Source: Bacteroidota bacterium (GTDB taxonomy: Bacteria; Bacteroidota; Bacteroidia; 2-12-FULL-35-15). From it: 64,000 nt of DNA. The notes beneath the pieces were generated by a model. The model was not told where the DNA came from, did no database searches, and worked only from the letters and a program-made list of their open reading frames with translations. Positions within the stretch are counted from its first letter, which is position 1. Each line of letters opens with the position of its first letter. Position numbers and translations under genes: made by a program. Location of the stretch: positions 1 to 64,000 of the forward strand of contig JAOQAG010000026.1 of the NCBI GenBank assembly GCA_025963715.1, in the 5' to 3' direction. Below, one piece after another: positions 33,015 through 40,565 of this stretch.

Positions 33015-33090
33015 TTTTAAATTAAGAAAGGCCGTACCGGCTTTGATACTGTAAAACTATTTCCTTTTTCAAATGCATTTTTTACAGATT

Positions 33091-33110
33091 GGCTAAAAAC
33101 CTTACATCTG
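33091..33110 (+). promoter_or_regulatory. TTACATCTG motif, distal copy
   Basis: GGCTAAAAACCTTACATCTG is a diverged copy of the motif at 33168-33185; the two lie in a roughly 40-base direct repeat (33079-33118 and 33154-33193) with 75-base spacing. Confidence 0.5.
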
Positions 33111-33167
33111 TTATCGGGGGTTTAAAATCGCAGCCCCGCAGCCATTTTGCTCCTTTTTACAAATTTT

Positions 33168-33185
33168 GCAAAAATCTTACATCTG
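33168..33185 (+). promoter_or_regulatory. Putative operator shared by three promoters (copy 1)
   Basis: GCAAAAATCTTACATCTG. Its TTACAT core starts at 33177, exactly 54 bases before a -7 box TATGTTTG (33231-33238). The same motif and spacing occur upstream of 37098 and, on the minus strand, of 39760. Confidence 0.6.
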
Positions 33186-33230
33186 TTATTGCCCGACTTA
33201 AATAGGCTGGTGTACGCCCTGAAACCGCAA

Positions 33231-33238
33231 TATGTTTG
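33231..33238 (+). promoter_or_regulatory. -7 box of the T9SS type A gene
   Basis: TATGTTTG is an exact TAnnTTTG match, 27 bases before the ATG at 33265. No good -33 box is visible, as expected for an activator-dependent promoter. Confidence 0.6.
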
Positions 33239-33264
33239 TATCAGAAATTTAAACACATATTCTC

Positions 33265-34125
33265 ATGACACTATTTACTAAAAAAACAATGTATACTTTC
33301 CTGATCTGCATCACATGCAGCATCTATGCAAATGCAACGCTCAGCGATGCATTAAAGATCAGAATTGTGAACGGCACTTATTCGGATGAAACAGTTGTTC
33401 GTTTTTTATCTGCTGCAACCCCAGGTTTCGATGCGGATTATGATGCGTATAAAATAATCAGCGCAGCTCCCGGCATTCCTTCTGCTTTTACAAACATTGA
33501 TCCTTTATCGCATTTATCCATCAATGGATTACCGGCACTTACAGAACGTACGGATGTTGATTTGTATACTTATATTAAAACAGCAGGAAACTATACGTTT
33601 CAATCCATTGAGCTGGGAAGCTTTTCGGCAGGCAGCAGGATTGTACTGGAAGATAAACAAACAGGTTTGTTGTATTCATTCAGAGACGGCAGCAGCACTG
33701 TTATTTATTTAAATGCTAACCTGGTAACAGCTGCCAGCCGCTTTACACTTCATTTTATCCCGGTACAACCGCCACCTGTAAGCAATGCACGCTATACTAC
33801 ACTGGGCAGCTTTATGACTGTGGATTCGCTTACAGATAATAACATCAATGTTACAAGAATGGATGGCATCGCAGCTGAAACGGAAACACCTCAACTGAAA
33901 GCATATCCACAGGATGGTGAGCTGGTGCTGGATCTTCAAACGACTGCCGTATCGGATATTCTTATCACTGTTTATAACATCAGCGGACAAGTGATCTACC
34001 GCTATTCCAACAAAAGCTCTATGGGTGTATCGGAGCGGTTACCGCTGACTGCATCCGGCATGTACATCGTGCAAACGATGATCGACAATAATGTACAAAC
34101 AAAAAAAATTAATTATACAAAATGA
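33265..34125 (+). CDS. Secreted protein with T9SS type A-like C-terminal domain
   Basis: A 286-residue exported protein with a signal peptide (to about residue 25, SIYANA). The C-terminal 75 residues (LKAYPQDGELVLDLQTTAVSDILITVYNISGQVIYRY .. MYIVQTMIDNNVQTKKI) form a type A sorting domain, so the protein is predicted to leave through T9SS. The N-terminal part has no recognised domain. It heads a three-gene group: a 38-residue ORF overlaps its stop, and a second secreted protein follows. Upstream are two copies of the TTACATCTG motif. Confidence 0.85.
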   Translation: MTLFTKKTMYTFLICITCSIYANATLSDALKIRIVNGTYSDETVVRFLSAATPGFDADYDAYKIISAAPGIPSAFTNIDPLSHLSINGLPALTERTDVDLYTYIKTAGNYTFQSIELGSFSAGSRIVLEDKQTGLLYSFRDGSSTVIYLNANLVTAASRFTLHFIPVQPPPVSNARYTTLGSFMTVDSLTDNNINVTRMDGIAAETETPQLKAYPQDGELVLDLQTTAVSDILITVYNISGQVIYRYSNKSSMGVSERLPLTASGMYIVQTMIDNNVQTKKINYTK

Positions 34126-34238
34126 AAAATCACAACACCCTCATTTACTCGAAAGCAAGAAAAGCAGGTATGCTTGACAAGATCGCGATACTATTGTTTT
34201 TTGTATTGCTTACCATGTCCTGCCTGTGTTTCGGCTAA
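34122..34238 (+). CDS. Small hydrophobic peptide, translationally coupled
   Basis: A 38-residue ORF whose ATG overlaps the stop of the T9SS gene (ATGA, 34122-34125). It begins MKNHNTLIYSKARKAGMLDK and continues into a hydrophobic stretch that ends LTMSCLCFG. The coupling, the basic N-terminus and a single membrane span make it likely to be real. A lipobox-like LTMSC is imperfect. Function unknown. Confidence 0.5.
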   Translation: MKNHNTLIYSKARKAGMLDKIAILLFFVLLTMSCLCFG

Positions 34239-34289
34239 GGAATGTAAAAAATCAACAAAATTAAAAACCACTAAAACAAGGAGGACATC

Positions 34290-34865
34290 ATGAAATCACT
34301 TATCCGCATTACCGCTATTGTATTTTTATTTACTGCGTTTACCGCTGCTGCTTACGCCGGCCATCCTAAAAAAACAAAAAAGGAACCGGCTGCAGCACCG
34401 GAAACTCCAACCGTTTGCCTGGAAGTGGCTGGAATTGCACTTGACTCTGCCGAACAGCCGATCAATGGTGTAAGTGTAAAATTGTACAGGGAAAATGATG
34501 AGCTGGAGTGGACGGAAGTAACAAGTGTGGATTACCACGACCATATGTTTAGCTTTAAGCTGAATGTAAATGAATATTACACCATTGAGGTTTCAAAAAA
34601 TGGTTATGTAACGCGTTCGGTGGCTATTTCAACAATGCTCCCGCCTGCTGTTTCATTAAAACAGTTGTTCCACTACGAATTTGAAGTACAGCTTTTCAAG
34701 GAAAACAAAGCGATGGATGATTATTACCTCGATTTTCCGGTGGCTTTGGTAAGTTATAACGCTAAAAGCGATGTTTTTGACAATAATGCTAATTATACAA
34801 AACACATAAAAACAAAAATAAAAGAAGCTACTGTGGCAAACTGCAGCATGATCGGAAAAAAATAA
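34290..34865 (+). CDS. Secreted beta-sandwich protein (carboxypeptidase-regulatory-like)
   Basis: A 191-residue exported protein (signal peptide to AYAG, about residue 23). Residues about 40-110 (LEVAGIALDSAEQPINGVSVKLYRENDELEWT .. YTIEVSKNGYVTRSV) resemble carboxypeptidase regulatory-like/CarboxypepD_reg domains that build beta-sandwiches in Bacteroidota envelope proteins. No T9SS domain is seen at the C-terminus. Preceded by an AAGGAGG-like Shine-Dalgarno (GGAGGAC) at 34280, unusually good for this genome. Confidence 0.75.
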   Translation: MKSLIRITAIVFLFTAFTAAAYAGHPKKTKKEPAAAPETPTVCLEVAGIALDSAEQPINGVSVKLYRENDELEWTEVTSVDYHDHMFSFKLNVNEYYTIEVSKNGYVTRSVAISTMLPPAVSLKQLFHYEFEVQLFKENKAMDDYYLDFPVALVSYNAKSDVFDNNANYTKHIKTKIKEATVANCSMIGKK

Positions 34866-34949
34866 GATCCCGCCCGGGAAAGCCCGCGGGGAAGGCCGCA
34901 CTGGTTTATACCATCTTTACAGTATCATTTAGGTTGAAACGTGGGGAGT

Positions 34950-34986
34950 AAGCAATTTCCGGATATAGCCCGGGAATTGCTTTTTA
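34950..34986 (+). terminator. Terminator after the secreted-protein group
   Basis: Stem AAGCAATTTCC / GGGAATTGCTT then TTTT, about 85 bases after the stop at 34865. Confidence 0.7.
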
Positions 34987-35076
34987 GTTTCCCCGGCCAA
35001 ACCGGGCTGATTAAAAATAAATACATTTCTTTTCCGTTAGTTACAGTTGATTTAATATTTTTGTAAATAAGATCCC

Positions 35077-35496
35077 ATGAAAACAAAAGCTCCAGTTTGT
35101 AAATACACATCGATCATGCTCATTGACGACAATGACATTGATAATTTTATCAATGAACGATTGGTAAAAGCGTATTATTTTTCAAAAAATGTGTATGTAC
35201 ACACGAGCACGAGAAGCGCGCTGGAATTTTTGAAGAACATAGAAGTGACCATGCATGATATGCCTGCGGAGCTAATCCCTTCGCACATTATGCTGGACAT
35301 TAATATGCCGATCCTCGACGGCTTCCATTTCCTGGATGAGTTTGAAAAATTCAGCCCGGAACTTATCCAAAAAATAAAGATCGTGATGCTTACCACTTCC
35401 TTAAATCCACTGGATGTGGAACGAAGCGGCAAATACAAATCGGTTGTAAAGTTTATTCACAAGCCGCTTACAGAAGAAGAGCTTTCGGGCTTATAA
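35077..35496 (+). CDS. Single-domain response regulator
   Basis: A 139-residue stand-alone receiver domain of the Rcp1/CheY-like group. The acidic pocket is IDDND (about residues 16-20), the phospho-acceptor D74 in IMLDINMPILDG, and the conserved lysine in FIHKPL. No output domain, so it probably passes phosphate or regulates by protein contact. It faces the histidine kinase at 35522-36937 (convergent) and has a close homologue at 37098. Confidence 0.9.
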   Translation: MKTKAPVCKYTSIMLIDDNDIDNFINERLVKAYYFSKNVYVHTSTRSALEFLKNIEVTMHDMPAELIPSHIMLDINMPILDGFHFLDEFEKFSPELIQKIKIVMLTTSLNPLDVERSGKYKSVVKFIHKPLTEEELSGL

Positions 35497-35521
35497 ACTG
35501 TTTTGCTGTTTCCGGAACAAT

Positions 35522-36937
35522 TTATTTTTGCAGGTTAGGCAAGGTTACATATACCGATGTGCCGCCTGTTTCGGAACTCCGGAGTGTAATTTTTCCTCCC
35601 ATTTTTTCTACTGATGTTTTTACAATGTGCAGTCCTAAACCACTACCGGATGCGGCACTGGTGGCACGGTAAAACATTTCAAATACTTTTTCCTGGGCTT
35701 TTGCCGGGATCCCGATACCGTTATCGGAAATATTAATGATCACCGATTGCCGGTTGGTTTCTATAGTGATTTTAATTTCGGAAGACCGGGCAGCATCCAC
35801 TTTCCGGTATTTTACGGCATTGTCGATCAGGTTTTGCAGCACGGAATGCAGCAGCTTATCATCGTTGTAAAAAGGAATGTCTTCATGTATATCTTTAGAG
35901 ATCACGATCTTGTTAAAATCGGGATAATGTTTTAATGAATCGAGCACTCCTGCGATCATCTCGTTAAAACAAATGCGGTTGCTTGTTAATGAGCCCTGCG
36001 CAAGGTTGGTAATGCTTACTAAATCGAGCAGCAGCTTTTCCATATTGCCGGTGCTTTTATCGATCATTCTAAAATACTCTTTGAGCACCGGATTATTTCC
36101 AACTTCGTTTTCCGCCACTTCAATCAGTCCCTTGAGCGACACCAAAGGCGAACGCAGATCGTGGCTGGCCTGGTACATAAATGCATTGAGCTGGTTTACT
36201 TTGTACTCCAGTTTTTTTTCATTTTCTTCCAGTTCTTCCGTTCTTTTTTTCACACGGCTTTCCAACTCTTCGTTCAGCTTTAATAAATCCCGTTCGGCCT
36301 GCCTGCGCAGGGCCAGATCCTTCCTGAAAAGAAAATAAAGCACTACCAGGATAATAAAAATGGCGGCGATCAGCAATAAAAAAGAAAGAATGGTATCATT
36401 GGCCTCCGTCATGTTATTTTCGGCCAGGTGATTAATTGTATCGCGCTGCTGCTGCTCGATCTGCTGCAGGTTTGAAAGAATATCGTTTCCTTGTTCCGCT
36501 AATTTTCCGTTGAGCACCAATTCAATTGCTGCTGCAGTTCCCTTCAAATGTCTTGTTTCTATTACTTTGTCGCCAAACGCAACCATGCCTAAAAATGCTT
36601 GCTGTAACTGAACTTTTTGCTGTGTGTATTTTTTGTCCTGAAGCAGGGTTCCCGCCAGCGTATTTATATAAACGGTTGCTTTTTTTATAGCAGCAGCATA
36701 TACAGCATGGTCTTTTTCGTTACCGGACAGTGCATATTTTCGTCCGGATGCTTCTGCTTTGATGAGCTGATATTTTATACTGTCGACAGAGCTGATCACA
36801 AGGCGGGCTTCTTCCTGCTGCTTATTTTCTTTGATAAGTCCCCGCATGTTAAAAAAAGTATTGATGGAGAACATTACAATGATCAATAGCGACAATAAAA
36901 AACCGGCAGCAATTTTTAATTCAATGGTTAATTTCAT
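35522..36937 (-). CDS. Membrane histidine kinase with CHASE3-type sensor
   Basis: A 471-residue kinase: TM1 about residues 9-29, a helical extracytoplasmic region of about 150 residues (CHASE3-like: SVDSIKYQLIKAEASGRKYALSG is typical), TM2 about 184-204, a coiled coil, HisKA with H259 (YQASHDLRSPLVSLKG) and HATPase with N, G1 and G2 boxes (NLIDNAVKYR, DNGIGIPAK, GSGLGLHIVK). It has no output domain of its own. The flanking orphan receivers at 35077 and 37098 are the obvious partners. Upstream of its start lies the 37002-37021 regulatory motif. Confidence 0.92.
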   Translation of the reverse strand: MKLTIELKIAAGFLLSLLIIVMFSINTFFNMRGLIKENKQQEEARLVISSVDSIKYQLIKAEASGRKYALSGNEKDHAVYAAAIKKATVYINTLAGTLLQDKKYTQQKVQLQQAFLGMVAFGDKVIETRHLKGTAAAIELVLNGKLAEQGNDILSNLQQIEQQQRDTINHLAENNMTEANDTILSFLLLIAAIFIILVVLYFLFRKDLALRRQAERDLLKLNEELESRVKKRTEELEENEKKLEYKVNQLNAFMYQASHDLRSPLVSLKGLIEVAENEVGNNPVLKEYFRMIDKSTGNMEKLLLDLVSITNLAQGSLTSNRICFNEMIAGVLDSLKHYPDFNKIVISKDIHEDIPFYNDDKLLHSVLQNLIDNAVKYRKVDAARSSEIKITIETNRQSVIINISDNGIGIPAKAQEKVFEMFYRATSAASGSGLGLHIVKTSVEKMGGKITLRSSETGGTSVYVTLPNLQK

Positions 36938-37001
36938 TGTTTTTTTGAGATTGAGTAGGCTACAAATTAAGAAATTACCGGGGATAATTATTTAACAAAA
37001 A

Positions 37002-37021
37002 GCAGGAAAATCTTACATCTG
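37002..37021 (+). promoter_or_regulatory. Putative operator shared by three promoters (copy 2)
   Basis: GCAGGAAAATCTTACATCTG. Its TTACAT core starts at 37013, exactly 54 bases before TATTTTTA (37067-37074). The spacing is the same as at the 33265 and 39760 promoters. Confidence 0.6.
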
Positions 37022-37066
37022 CAATTTATTTTTGAAGTATGAGTATTGAATTTGGGGAGGAATGGT

Positions 37067-37074
37067 TATTTTTA
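37067..37074 (+). promoter_or_regulatory. -7-like box of the second receiver gene
   Basis: TATTTTTA matches TAnnTTTG except for the last base and lies 24 bases before the ATG at 37098. A better box, TATTTTTG at 37027-37034, is an alternative. Confidence 0.45.
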
Positions 37075-37097
37075 CTAGGATAAACAAACATAAACTT

Positions 37098-37556
37098 ATG
37101 ACTACACCCCCTTCTGTTGCAGCCAAATACCCCCTGGTGATGCTGGTAGATGACAGTTCGATCGACAATTTTGTAAATAAAAAAATAATTGAGCGGTATG
37201 GTTTTGCAAGTGAGGTAATGACTTTCACACGTGCAAGACAGGCATTGCGGCATCTTTTAAAGCTGAATACAAGCGAGGATCCGATCCCGGGGATTTTATT
37301 CCTCGATCTTAATATGCCGGAAATCGACGGTTTTGAATTCCTTGAAACATTTAATTTATTGTCGGACAGGGTCAAAAAAAACATCCATATTGTGATCCTT
37401 ACCAGCTCTATTAACCCCACAGATGTGGAGATCTGCAATAAATATGAATCGGTGATCACTTTCCTGCACAAGCCATTGGTAAAAAACAATTTAGATACCC
37501 TGGAAGAGTTACTGATTAAAAAAAAGGATGAGCAGGAAGCTTCGGGAAATAAATAA
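37098..37556 (+). CDS. Single-domain response regulator (second copy)
   Basis: A 152-residue receiver domain beginning MTTPPSVAAKYPLVMLVDDS, with phospho-acceptor D70 (LFLDLNMPEIDG) and the conserved lysine in FLHKPLVKNN. I take the ATG at 37098, since an in-frame start at 37062 would overlap the -7-like box. It is homologous to the receiver at 35077 (shared LDxNMPxxDGF and SLNP/SINPTDVE segments) and divergent from the histidine kinase. Confidence 0.9.
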   Translation: MTTPPSVAAKYPLVMLVDDSSIDNFVNKKIIERYGFASEVMTFTRARQALRHLLKLNTSEDPIPGILFLDLNMPEIDGFEFLETFNLLSDRVKKNIHIVILTSSINPTDVEICNKYESVITFLHKPLVKNNLDTLEELLIKKKDEQEASGNK

Positions 37557-37641
37557 AAATGAACGAATATTTATTCTTAATGGCCATTAGTTGAATTTTT
37601 TTTATAAATTGTATCTACTTTATTTTTGAATTCTTTTTTTT

Positions 37642-39069
37642 ATGAAACTTGAAAAGATCATCATCCAGTTAAAAGAAAAAAATTATCAACTGTTGTGCGA
37701 GCAGCTAAAAGTCCATAAAGGAGATAAGTATTTGTTATTGCTTGACCTCTACCGGCAAAACTCCATTTCAGAAAAAGAAATACAATCGCAACTGGATATT
37801 AAGCCTGCGGCTTTTTACACACTCAAATCCAGGCTGTATGATAAGATCCAGGAATTTTTATACAAAGCCACTTCGGATACCCGCATAGAGTTGCTGAGCA
37901 ATGTAGGCAACATTGAATATTTAATATATAAAGCGCCGAAGGAAACGGCTACCGGGATCCTGCAAAAGCTGGAAACCGAGCTGATCAAAAACGACATGCC
38001 GAGCGAGCTGATCATGGTATACAAAGCCCTGAAAAAGCTGCATGTGTATTCTCCAAAATATTACGATTATGAGCAGCTGTACAATAAATATGTTGCATAC
38101 AATTTAGCGCAGGACAAAGCGGAGGAAGTACTTTCTTCTTTTTGTAAAGTGCTGCTGATGTATTATGCTTCGCGCGATCACAAGCTGCTGGATATTCTTA
38201 TCCTTTACAAAAAGGAAATGCAGAATCTCTGCAGGATCCACCAGTCGCACCGCTTAACGGTTTACAAAAATATCCTGAACATTCATTTTGCATTGTTCTC
38301 TCCGGTAAAGGAGGAATTAAAAAACGATCCGACGATTGAGGACCTGCTGAAAGAAACGTATCTGATCCTGGAAACGCACACGGAAGACCAATCATATATT
38401 CACCTTGTAAGCGCGCTGCATTTTTTATCGTTTGAATATTATCATCAGCTGAAACTGCATAAAAATGCAGCCACTTTTTATGATAAGCTTTCGGAGGAAG
38501 ACAATTCCATCCTGCTATACAATCATGCCTGCTTTTCCATTCATTTTTTAATTTCGAGGATCGAATGGAATTATGCGAACAACAGTATTGAAGCTATTAT
38601 TAATGAAGAACCTTTGGAGTATGTTCCGATCGAGGAAAATACGGTGGAACAAATTATCAACAAACAATATTTAGCGGCTATTTGTTTTCACAAAGGAAAT
38701 TTTTCGGAAGGCGCGCTGATCCTTAATTCGCTGATCAACGATGTGAGTTTTAAGGAAATGCTGCACCTGGAAATTGAAACAAAATTATTCATGATCCTGC
38801 TGCTGCTCTTGTGTGAAAAACCTGATCTTGCAGAAACCACGCTGAGAAGCATCAGCAGAAAAATTCCGGAAGACGAGGAGATCAAGCACCACACGGCTAT
38901 GCTTTTTATCAAACTGTTTAAAACGGCGCTTACCAATAAAGTAACCAACAAGCTGGAAAAGTTAAAAGATATTGAAAAGCTGATCTCTGTTACCAATACC
39001 GGCCCGGGAAAAATTCTTGCATTCATGCACATGGAACCGCAACACCTGGTTAAACTGTCGAAGCTTTAA
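37642..39069 (+). CDS. Large helical protein with N-terminal HTH-like region
   Basis: A 475-residue, almost entirely helical cytoplasmic protein. Residues about 42-72 (SISEKEIQSQLDIKPAAFYTLKSRLYDKI) look like a helix-turn-helix of sigma-region-4 type; the rest consists of TPR-like or HEAT-like alpha repeats without a clear consensus (e.g. LAAICFHKGNFSEGALILNSLI). I recognise this layout from unnamed Bacteroidota proteins but not a function. It follows the second receiver by 85 bases on the same strand, so it may belong to the same signalling unit. Confidence 0.7.
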   Translation: MKLEKIIIQLKEKNYQLLCEQLKVHKGDKYLLLLDLYRQNSISEKEIQSQLDIKPAAFYTLKSRLYDKIQEFLYKATSDTRIELLSNVGNIEYLIYKAPKETATGILQKLETELIKNDMPSELIMVYKALKKLHVYSPKYYDYEQLYNKYVAYNLAQDKAEEVLSSFCKVLLMYYASRDHKLLDILILYKKEMQNLCRIHQSHRLTVYKNILNIHFALFSPVKEELKNDPTIEDLLKETYLILETHTEDQSYIHLVSALHFLSFEYYHQLKLHKNAATFYDKLSEEDNSILLYNHACFSIHFLISRIEWNYANNSIEAIINEEPLEYVPIEENTVEQIINKQYLAAICFHKGNFSEGALILNSLINDVSFKEMLHLEIETKLFMILLLLLCEKPDLAETTLRSISRKIPEDEEIKHHTAMLFIKLFKTALTNKVTNKLEKLKDIEKLISVTNTGPGKILAFMHMEPQHLVKLSKL

Positions 39070-39091
39070 CCGGGCGTTGTTTCTAATTCAA

Positions 39092-39760
39092 TCAGAAATG
39101 TGTTTTGTTTATTTTACTGAACTGGTAGGAAATTCCAGTCCTCATCAGCATTCCCACCGCGTGCGTATTGTAATACATCCCCTGCGGCGCATTTAACACA
39201 TCGTAACCTCCAATGCCAATGCAGCTGAACCATTTAAAGTTTTTAAGGAATGTAACCCGTAAACCAAAACCTGCATAGGCTTCCAATGCTTTAAATTTTT
39301 TGTCATCCAGGTTTTCTTTAAAATCCGGATTTTCTGTCCGCTCTTCTTCACATACCGTATGGCCCAGCTGGGCCTGGTTGTAATAACCGGCAGTTGCAAA
39401 GGCAAACAGCTCGAGCCAGCGGAGATAACAATCACCGGAATTTCCATCCAGGATAGTGTATTCATAATTGCCCTGAAAGCCACAGAAATGCGGGTCTTGT
39501 TTCTGAACCATTATTCCGGCTGCAAATAAATTACGTTTTGATTTATAAAAAACAGAAGGAGCGTATATCGCACCAAAGCGGTTAGCTGAAATGGTACTGC
39601 TGACACGCAGGCCAAGACTTCCGTGCGATTTTACCCGGTTTTGTGCAAACAGGGAACCACTTGCCAGCAATAGATTAATAATTACTATAAATAGAAGGTG
39701 TCCAGTGTGGATCCGGCAGAAGCTGCTTCCGCAGTAGTTCAATAGTAATGGTTTTTTCAT
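39092..39760 (-). CDS. Outer-membrane beta-barrel-like protein
   Basis: A 222-residue exported protein (start at 39760, MKKPLLLNYCGSSF; signal peptide cut near ASGSLFAQ). The body is alternating hydrophobic/polar with Gly/Tyr/Phe-rich strands (KSHGSLGLRVSSTISANRFGA, AYAGFGLRVTFLKNF) and ends GMLMRTGISYQFSKI, the aromatic end typical of Bacteroidota porin-like barrels. Function unknown. Its promoter region carries the GCAAAAATCTTACAT motif on the minus strand. Confidence 0.75.
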   Translation of the reverse strand: MKKPLLLNYCGSSFCRIHTGHLLFIVIINLLLASGSLFAQNRVKSHGSLGLRVSSTISANRFGAIYAPSVFYKSKRNLFAAGIMVQKQDPHFCGFQGNYEYTILDGNSGDCYLRWLELFAFATAGYYNQAQLGHTVCEEERTENPDFKENLDDKKFKALEAYAGFGLRVTFLKNFKWFSCIGIGGYDVLNAPQGMYYNTHAVGMLMRTGISYQFSKINKTHF

Positions 39761-39781
39761 GGTGTGTTTATTTTTACACCA

Positions 39782-39789
39782 CAAAGAAA
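39782..39789 (-). promoter_or_regulatory. -7-like box of the beta-barrel gene
   Basis: Minus-strand TTTCTTTG (39789 to 39782) matches TAnnTTTG except at the second base, 22 bases upstream of the start at 39760. Confidence 0.45.
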
Positions 39790-39834
39790 CTCCAGGATCA
39801 TCCCAAACAAAAATCAATCATGTACAGAACACTT

Positions 39835-39853
39835 CACATGTAAGATTTTTGCG
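39835..39853 (-). promoter_or_regulatory. Putative operator shared by three promoters (copy 3)
   Basis: On the minus strand this reads CGCAAAAATCTTACATGTG. Its TTACAT core starts at 39843, exactly 54 bases before the -7-like box at 39789. It shares AAAATCTTACAT with the 33168 and 37002 copies. Confidence 0.6.
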
Positions 39854-39863
39854 TTTTTATTTA

Positions 39864-40565
39864 TTATTTCCCCATCAGCAGCTTAAATCCTTTTCCATGC
39901 ACATTGATGATCTCCACTCCGGGATCGCCGCCCAAATACTTACGCAGCTTGGCAATGTACACATCCATGCTTCTTCCGTTAAAATAATTATCATCGTTCC
40001 AGATCGCTTTTAAAGCAAAATTACGATCCAGGATATCATTCGCATGCAGGCAAAGCAGCTTTAAAAGGTCCGCTTCCTTGGTGGTTAATTTCTGCTGTGA
40101 TCCTTTCATGTCAAGCGTTTGATGTGGGTAATCAAATTTGTATTTACCGATCTTGAATTCGACCTGGTCGTTATTCACATTTGCTTTGATCTCGGTCCTG
40201 CGCAGGATCGCTTTGATGCGCACCTGCAGCTCTTCCATACTGAAAGGCTTGGTAATGTAGTCGTCCGCACCGGCATTAAAACCTTCTATGGTATCTTCTT
40301 TCATAGATTTTGCAGTTAAAAATACAATAGGCACATTGGCATCGATCGCGCGGATCTCTTTTGCCAGTGTGTAGCCATCTTTAACCGGCATCATCACATC
40401 CAGGATACAGATGTTGTACTTATCTTTCGAAAACATATCAAATCCTTGTTTACCGTTCACAGCAAGTGTAGTGATGTATCCTTTTGCTTCAAGGTATTCT
40501 TTTAAAAGTGTTCCGAGGTTGGCATCGTCTTCCACCAGCAGGATTTTTAATTTTTCTGTTTGCAT
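39864..40565 (-). CDS. OmpR-family response regulator (RprY-like)
   Basis: A 233-residue two-domain regulator: receiver with phospho-acceptor D56 (ICILDVMMPVKDG) and T/K signature residues in FLTAKSMKEDTIEG and DYITKPFSMEEL, then a winged-helix DNA-binding domain (LTTKEADLLKLLCLHAND; SMDVYIAKLRKYLGGDPGVEI). It closely resembles the RprY group of Bacteroidota. Translated 12 bases after its histidine kinase. The TTAACA repeats at 42224-42260 are its probable binding site. Confidence 0.92.
   Translation of the reverse strand: MQTEKLKILLVEDDANLGTLLKEYLEAKGYITTLAVNGKQGFDMFSKDKYNICILDVMMPVKDGYTLAKEIRAIDANVPIVFLTAKSMKEDTIEGFNAGADDYITKPFSMEELQVRIKAILRRTEIKANVNNDQVEFKIGKYKFDYPHQTLDMKGSQQKLTTKEADLLKLLCLHANDILDRNFALKAIWNDDNYFNGRSMDVYIAKLRKYLGGDPGVEIINVHGKGFKLLMGK

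Follow-up and report, generated by a model that had tools for sequence, protein, structure and literature searches.

A predicted operator at a fixed distance from the -7 box and its candidate HTH/helical-repeat activator in Bacteroidia

The stretch of Bacteroidota DNA analyzed here (contig JAOQAG010000026.1, positions 1 to 64,000; hereafter called the window) carries a promoter motif upstream of genes for a secreted protein, a stand-alone receiver, and an exported-looking protein. The full promoter reads TACAAA-N7-AAAATCTTACATCTG, then the -7 box TAnnTTTG. The motif is likely the operator of a class-I-like activator, and this activator is predicted to be the protein encoded at 37642 to 39069 on the plus strand, which combines a helix-turn-helix (HTH) domain resembling sigma factor region 4 (residues ~11 to 78) with tetratricopeptide repeat (TPR)-like helical repeats (~118 to 475). 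The proposal draws on co-occurrence of the gene with the sites, a structure model, and linkage.

A window search located AAAATCTTACAT exactly at 33171 to 33182 and 37007 to 37018 on the plus strand and at 39838 to 39849 on the minus strand, with a one-mismatch copy at 33096. A sequence-only reading of this DNA had described three sites with an exact 54-base spacing and an extra copy 75 bases upstream, and all of these are present in the window. The distance from TTACAT to the box is exactly 54 for TATGTTTG, TATTTTTA, and TTTCTTTG alike, and the two copies upstream of 33265 are set 75 bases apart, the one at 33096 having no box at 54. The operator of the gene with a type IX secretion system (T9SS) tail, TACAAA-N7-AAAATCTTACATCTG, lies at 33158 to 33185 (+), 54 bases ahead of TATGTTTG (33231 to 33238, +), which matches TAnnTTTG exactly. 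The operator of the receiver-HTH operon (36994 to 37021, +) is followed by TATTTTTA (37067 to 37074, +), and that of the exported-looking protein, whose TACAAA arm is degenerate (39835 to 39862, -), by TTTCTTTG (39782 to 39789, -), both of these boxes being imperfect. The gaps from box end to ATG are 26, 23, and 21 nucleotides in the three promoters. When the window was scanned with a promoter matrix built solely from 28 sites of other families, these operators scored 55.5, 31.5, and 35.9, respectively, and the upstream extra copy TACAGA-N7-AAAACCTTACATCTG (33083 to 33110, +) scored 15.7, together taking ranks 1 to 4, with the next-best position at 10.2. In 100 first-order Markov windows, the maximum averaged 8.1, and the highest was 22.7; because such windows reach 22.7, the fourth site, which has no box, does not reach significance as a full promoter. 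Chance, which the sequence-only reading had considered unlikely, is rejected as the source of the window sites by this ranking.

Several positions that the searches did not ask for are conserved among 34 sites when numbered from the C of CTTACAT, namely, TACAAA at -18 to -13, AA at -5/-4, GG at 29/30, and A's past the box. The 28 other-family sites show the same conserved positions, but of the GG pair, the G at 29 alone is prominent. The TACA of the second element, TACAAA, sits 20 bases before the TACA of CTTACAT, and the TACA copies at -18 and +2 thus form a direct repeat. In genome G086, one site is an inverted repeat with 24 of 25 positions matching, and another (L180) matches at 20 of 25. 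These near-perfect 50-bp palindromic sites are located at L180:8155-8212, between divergent receiver genes, and at L180:4842-4899, between a gene encoding 824 amino acids and a receiver gene. Sites in L183 and L070 match at 17, 17, and 13 of 25 positions, and the two window copies checked, at 10 and 9 of 25, are not palindromes. In Flavobacterium psychrophilum, the -7 box spans -12 to -5 (PMC9723704), and if the box lies there in these promoters too, the operator center would fall at about -60.5.

The observation is genuine and extends far beyond the window. In the search patterns, N45 corresponds to the 54-base spacing. Among 36 genomes of the genus, AANCTTACATNNG-N{40,50}-TNNNTTTG gave 29 matches in 15 genomes, 21 of them at N45, compared with 11 for the reversed control with all spacings pooled. 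Over a class sample of 395 Bacteroidia genomes, AANCTTACATNNG-N{42,48}-TNNNTTTG gave 134 matches, with 74 at N45 and 5 to 15 at each of the other six spacings; the reversed control over all seven spacings gave about 51 (hand count). More matches at the same spacing were what the sequence-only reading had proposed to look for, and both samples supplied them. With a stricter word and 31 spacings, N{25,55}, 34 of 43 matches in 44 genomes fell at N45, and the reversed control had none, while 31 longer spacings, N{56,86}, gave 5 matches; this result describes the shape of the peak and not its frequency, because most of the 44 genomes were chosen for having a site. Strict patterns miss diverged sites, and the matrix found the variants CTTACAC, CTTACAG, CTTACTT, or CTTACTG at the same distance in G006, G016, G028, and G032, with lower scores of 14.6 to 43.0. 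A scan of named genomes returned one locus, on a metagenome-assembled Bacteroidetes contig. With the start placed from the box position, the operator lies at a fixed phase near -61 on sigma-A promoters.

The frequency of the word in the window's own 4.9-Mb genome is less telling. AAAATCTTACAT has five exact copies there, three of them within this 7 kb, and its reversed control also has five; the word alone is clustered here, yet not enriched genome-wide, and since the reversed control is equally frequent, the rarity of the word by itself proves nothing. The 16-mer with up to three mismatches shows a slight excess (137 versus 113 reversed). CTTACAT-N{33,63}-TNNNTTTG has 65 matches versus 67 for the reversed pattern, 7 of them at the exact spacing, and because the spaced pattern is no commoner than its control, the own genome alone is weak evidence.

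Orthologous promoters keep the operator and the box. In the orthologous loci of G010, G029, and G009, sites are retained before the T9SS gene, the receiver (at a spacing of 55 in G010), and the exported protein; the sites retained in G016 are those of the T9SS gene and the receiver, and other sites persist in G025 and G032. Across the T9SS promoters of five genomes, conservation was 1.00 for TACAAA, 0.89 for the core, and 1.00 for the box versus 0.48 for the spacer and 0.31 for the upstream sequence, and the conservation anticipated by the earlier reading is thus borne out for these promoters. The other promoters follow this trend less sharply, with 0.56 for TACAAA, 0.81 for the core, and 0.36 for the spacer in the 39092 promoters (four genomes) and 0.78, 0.77, and 0.31, respectively, in the receiver promoters (three genomes). 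The box, found at 54 in the window and conserved in orthologues, is the TAnnTTTG of the Bacteroidetes sigma-A promoter, which is supplemented here by a GG near -38 and by the upstream operator. A search of the whole window with Rfam at gathering thresholds returned two tRNAs only, and a mobile repeat or an RNA element was rejected as the origin of the motif, because the operator and box are conserved and the flanks are not and because Rfam had no match beyond these tRNAs.

The distribution of the sites follows that of the HTH gene. A profile built from the 37642 protein and 21 homologues matched in 110 of the 395 genomes and matched strongly in 89. N45 sites occur in 38 of these 89 genomes and in 5 of the 306 others (Fisher's exact test, 6.5e-23; 2.5e-22 without the window's genome), while at the other spacings, the two groups differ little or not at all, with p values of 0.05 (N47), about 0.08 (N43 and N44), and at least 0.18 (the rest). 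In 12 families that include genomes of both kinds, an N45 site is present in 25 of 45 genomes with the gene and in none of 73 without it; four of these families have no N45 site at all, and the remaining eight give 25 of 36 versus 0 of 38. Within the genus, the proportions are 7 of 13 and 2 of 23 (p 0.005). The gene and its sites are also linked: 20 of the 69 N45 sites in genomes with the gene lie within 15 kb of it, three genomes of family f38 have a site 175 to 180 bases from a divergently oriented HTH gene, and in the genus, the gene itself is downstream of a site. In 22 of 29 loci, the HTH gene has a stand-alone receiver no more than 2 kb away. The regulator is very probably the 37642-39069 protein, and the guess of the sequence-only reading that this protein reads the motif gains support, as the sites track its family class-wide and within families.

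Other regulators were weighed against this distribution. A CRP/FNR-type or other unlinked activator, binding a TTAC-N4-GTAA palindrome near -60 and leaving the HTH family as a co-inherited part of the regulon, is unlikely. The position of the HTH gene behind a site in the genus would fit such an activator, as would the CRP/FNR-like geometry of the core TTACATNNGTAA in some genomes and the position, -61.5 being a classic one for class I; however, at 50 bp and with TACAAA arms, the palindromic form exceeds a CRP site in size, and the strong co-occurrence with the HTH family holds within families. It is very unlikely that the OmpR-type response regulator encoded at 39864 to 40565 (-) binds the motif with its kinase and that the HTH protein is merely a co-regulated target. 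This regulator adjoins the gene of the exported-looking protein, is 88 to 91% identical across the three closest loci, and could bind direct repeats of TTACA, but a close orthologue (71 to 100% identity) is present in 31 of the 36 genus genomes, 17 of which lack both the HTH gene and an N45 site, and in stretches from other families, it is the HTH gene and not the OmpR-type regulator that recurs beside the sites. The OmpR neighbor was rejected because its distribution does not follow the motif. A purely basal element with no activator (UP-like or read by an alternative sigma factor) would agree with the strictly fixed spacing, the A-rich stretch, and the sigma-4-like HTH but is very unlikely, as sites are scarce in any one genome and almost absent from genomes without the HTH gene, the box is an ordinary TAnnTTTG, and the palindromic versions point to a dimeric protein.

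The candidate activator appears to belong to an undescribed Bacteroidia family. Its structure model (predicted local distance difference test score of 87) consists of an HTH and a TPR-like superhelix. The HTH aligns with region 4 of SigD over 61 residues (Z 7.3; root mean square deviation of 1.7), and the list of similar folds is headed by a UPF0122 protein (1xsv; Z 7.9), ahead of an unrelated viral protein (2i8b; 7.4) and sigma region 4 (7.3); since all of these Z scores are below 8, the list provides a lead only, and the domain may belong to a family outside it. Within the domain, R38, A57, and KSRL at 62 to 65 are invariant. The helical repeats (~112 to 475) align with Rap and NprR at Z scores of 13 to 16, and other helical-repeat proteins score close to these values. 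At the sequence level, Pfam and NCBIfam gave no convincing match for 22 members (best E values of 0.0033, for TPR_6, and 0.036, respectively), and no sigma family was among the Pfam matches up to an E value of 0.1. A profile search (A1) of the PDB had one match, to an unrelated chain (E 0.6), and thus revealed no sequence homology to RRNPP proteins. The protein has neither the Response_reg nor the Trans_reg_C domain of OmpR/PhoB regulators, and its only sigma-like part is the region-4-like fold at the N terminus, unlike the region 2 plus region 4 architecture of extracytoplasmic function sigma factors.

Several observations weigh against assigning the motif to this protein. SigD is no better a match to the HTH than the viral protein 2i8b is, the Z scores of Rap and NprR are equaled by unrelated helical-repeat proteins, separase (Z 15.0) among them, and Foldseek found nothing at an E value of 0.001 for the whole protein or for the HTH domain. 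The box at 37067 departs from the consensus, and the own genome shows no enrichment of the word when the spacing is disregarded. The strict pattern finds no N45 match in 51 of the 89 genomes with the HTH gene, including all those of families f2, f17, f22, and f61; such families may use another spacing or word, and two matches in G341 are at N44. In an operator-core scan of ten HTH loci without an exact-spacing site, the best scores were 17.6 (L059) and 17.3 (L058), and the rest were 12.7 or lower. Conversely, the genus genomes G035 (98% complete) and G019 (64%) have an N45 site with no HTH gene detected. Seven of the 29 HTH loci have no receiver within 2 kb. Finally, the genomes are related and not independent, and the family-stratified test corrects for this in part only.

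Some irregular loci were also observed. A good site in G035 (L159:10239) has no open reading frame (ORF) of at least 60 amino acids close downstream and is perhaps a relic. In G017, the contig stops just past a weak site that points off it (L160:1-200), where the receiver-HTH operon would be expected, and the absence of the HTH gene from this genome may be an assembly gap. The HTH gene is broken into two reading frames at G091:C1:559105-560542 and in L071 (G020).

Exported proteins make up most of the predicted targets, which also include receivers and kinases. The target set comprised 64 unique sites scoring at least 28 in the sequences analyzed; the training sites of the two matrices are part of this set. 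For 60 of the 64 sites, an ORF of at least 60 amino acids is present within 300 nucleotides, and an ATG-initiated ORF of this size lies within 60 nucleotides of 53 sites versus 716 of 4,000 random positions. By a crude, home-made hydrophobicity rule, 42 of these 53 ORFs look signal bearing versus 181 of 518 ORFs, a contrast that may be overstated because of the rule and because the first possible start codon was taken for the 518. Single-linkage BLAST clustering of 60 targets gave a largest cluster of 20, which holds the window's T9SS-tailed gene (the tail being tested in some members only), followed by 11 proteins with a receiver, 7 related to 39092, 5 small proteins, 4 related to 34290, and smaller clusters; single targets tested include PorP/SprF, FIST, and YfiR-like proteins. 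A target of 145 to 155 amino acids with a signal-like start recurs at L174:7956, L190:1425, and L066:7171 and in L145 and L147, and the one tested has a CHU_C T9SS tail. The earlier suggestion of a transcription factor that activates surface-protein and signaling genes agrees with the target types, the spacing, and the conservation, although binding and activation themselves are inferred.

In the window, the first target (33265 to 34125, +) encodes a secreted protein with a weak Por_Secre_tail match (E 1.3e-5; 25.9 bits, under the 27-bit cutoff). The second target is the stand-alone receiver at 37098 to 37556 (+; Response_reg, 1.2e-12), and the third is the exported-looking protein at 39092 to 39760 (-), which the earlier reading had called a beta-barrel and which has no Pfam match. 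Between the first two targets lie an exported, weakly carboxypeptidase-regulatory-like protein (34290 to 34865, +; 19.1 bits, under the 32.3 cutoff), a second stand-alone receiver (35077 to 35496, +), whose family recurs beside the HTH gene, and a CHASE3 histidine kinase (35522 to 36937, -). Around the HTH loci, kinases are found repeatedly, as are members of the 34290 family and homologues of the T9SS-tailed protein.

In the mechanism that we propose, a dimer or tetramer of the 37642 protein would bind around -60 and recruit the ordinary sigma-A polymerase to the TAnnTTTG promoter. The TTACA units of the site recur in the same orientation at a 20-base interval, and at least one genome has a site that is palindromic over its full 50 bp. 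In the window, the protein would drive the T9SS-tailed protein, the receiver together with its own gene (autoregulation), and the exported protein. The input would probably be a stand-alone receiver phosphorylated by the neighboring kinases, and the helical repeats may read the phosphorylated receiver as Rap reads Spo0F, making a split response regulator, which is the least certain step. These loci often contain stand-alone receivers and T9SS-type genes, and how such receivers would control transcription is the question addressed here. We tentatively suggest a class-wide split two-component system of Bacteroidia, in which stand-alone receivers and a separate HTH/TPR activator reading them might control, through a large site at -60 (up to a 50-bp palindrome), exported surface proteins, T9SS cargo among them, and their own signaling genes.

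Several known systems resemble this arrangement in part. RRNPP proteins (NprR and PlcR) and Rap (RapH-Spo0F) have an N-terminal HTH and TPR-like repeats, an architecture that the 37642 protein may share, Rap binds a stand-alone receiver according to the entry title of 3q15 (RapH with Spo0F), and Rap and NprR are among the best structural rows, where other proteins reach the same Z scores. The 37642 protein differs from them in having no sequence match, an HTH nearer to sigma region 4, and no known peptide partner. Control of the T9SS by PorX/PorY, together with SigP, is similar in that two-component signaling is tied to T9SS genes. The system proposed here differs from PorX in its separate DNA-binding protein and in having exported proteins as targets. 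PorX, a CheY-like T9SS regulator, is reported not to bind T9SS promoters (PMC5005315). Class I activators such as CRP/FNR, at -61.5, are alike in position, as the site here would be centered near -60.5 from the start if the box lies as in F. psychrophilum (PMC9723704), whereas the 37642 system involves another protein family, a larger site, and essentially one spacing. A literature search including "TTACATCTG" found nothing on this motif or protein among the matches listed for the terms tried. The analysis provides a named candidate DNA-binding partner, an operator, and the exact geometry of the promoter, together with targets from 38 of the class-sample genomes, and it yields a rule by which regulated promoters of uncultured Bacteroidia can be predicted.

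Further exact-spacing sites occur elsewhere in the own genome. A second regulon member, encoded on contig C19, matches the DUF5122 beta-propeller; its promoter contains one intact copy and, 68 bases further along, a weak one that lies at exactly 54, and its counterparts in G010, G019, and G029, matched by gene order and not by sequence, carry strong sites. The site on C2 precedes a FIST protein and then a hybrid kinase, with the ATG 136 nucleotides past the box, and that on C3 (score of 25.6) precedes an ORF of 138 amino acids. The seventh exact-spacing match of this genome lies on C43. On C10 (L074:3114-3330), a strong exact-spacing site is followed 27 nucleotides on by an ORF of 50 codons whose product, with a single hydrophobic stretch, is perhaps a small membrane protein.

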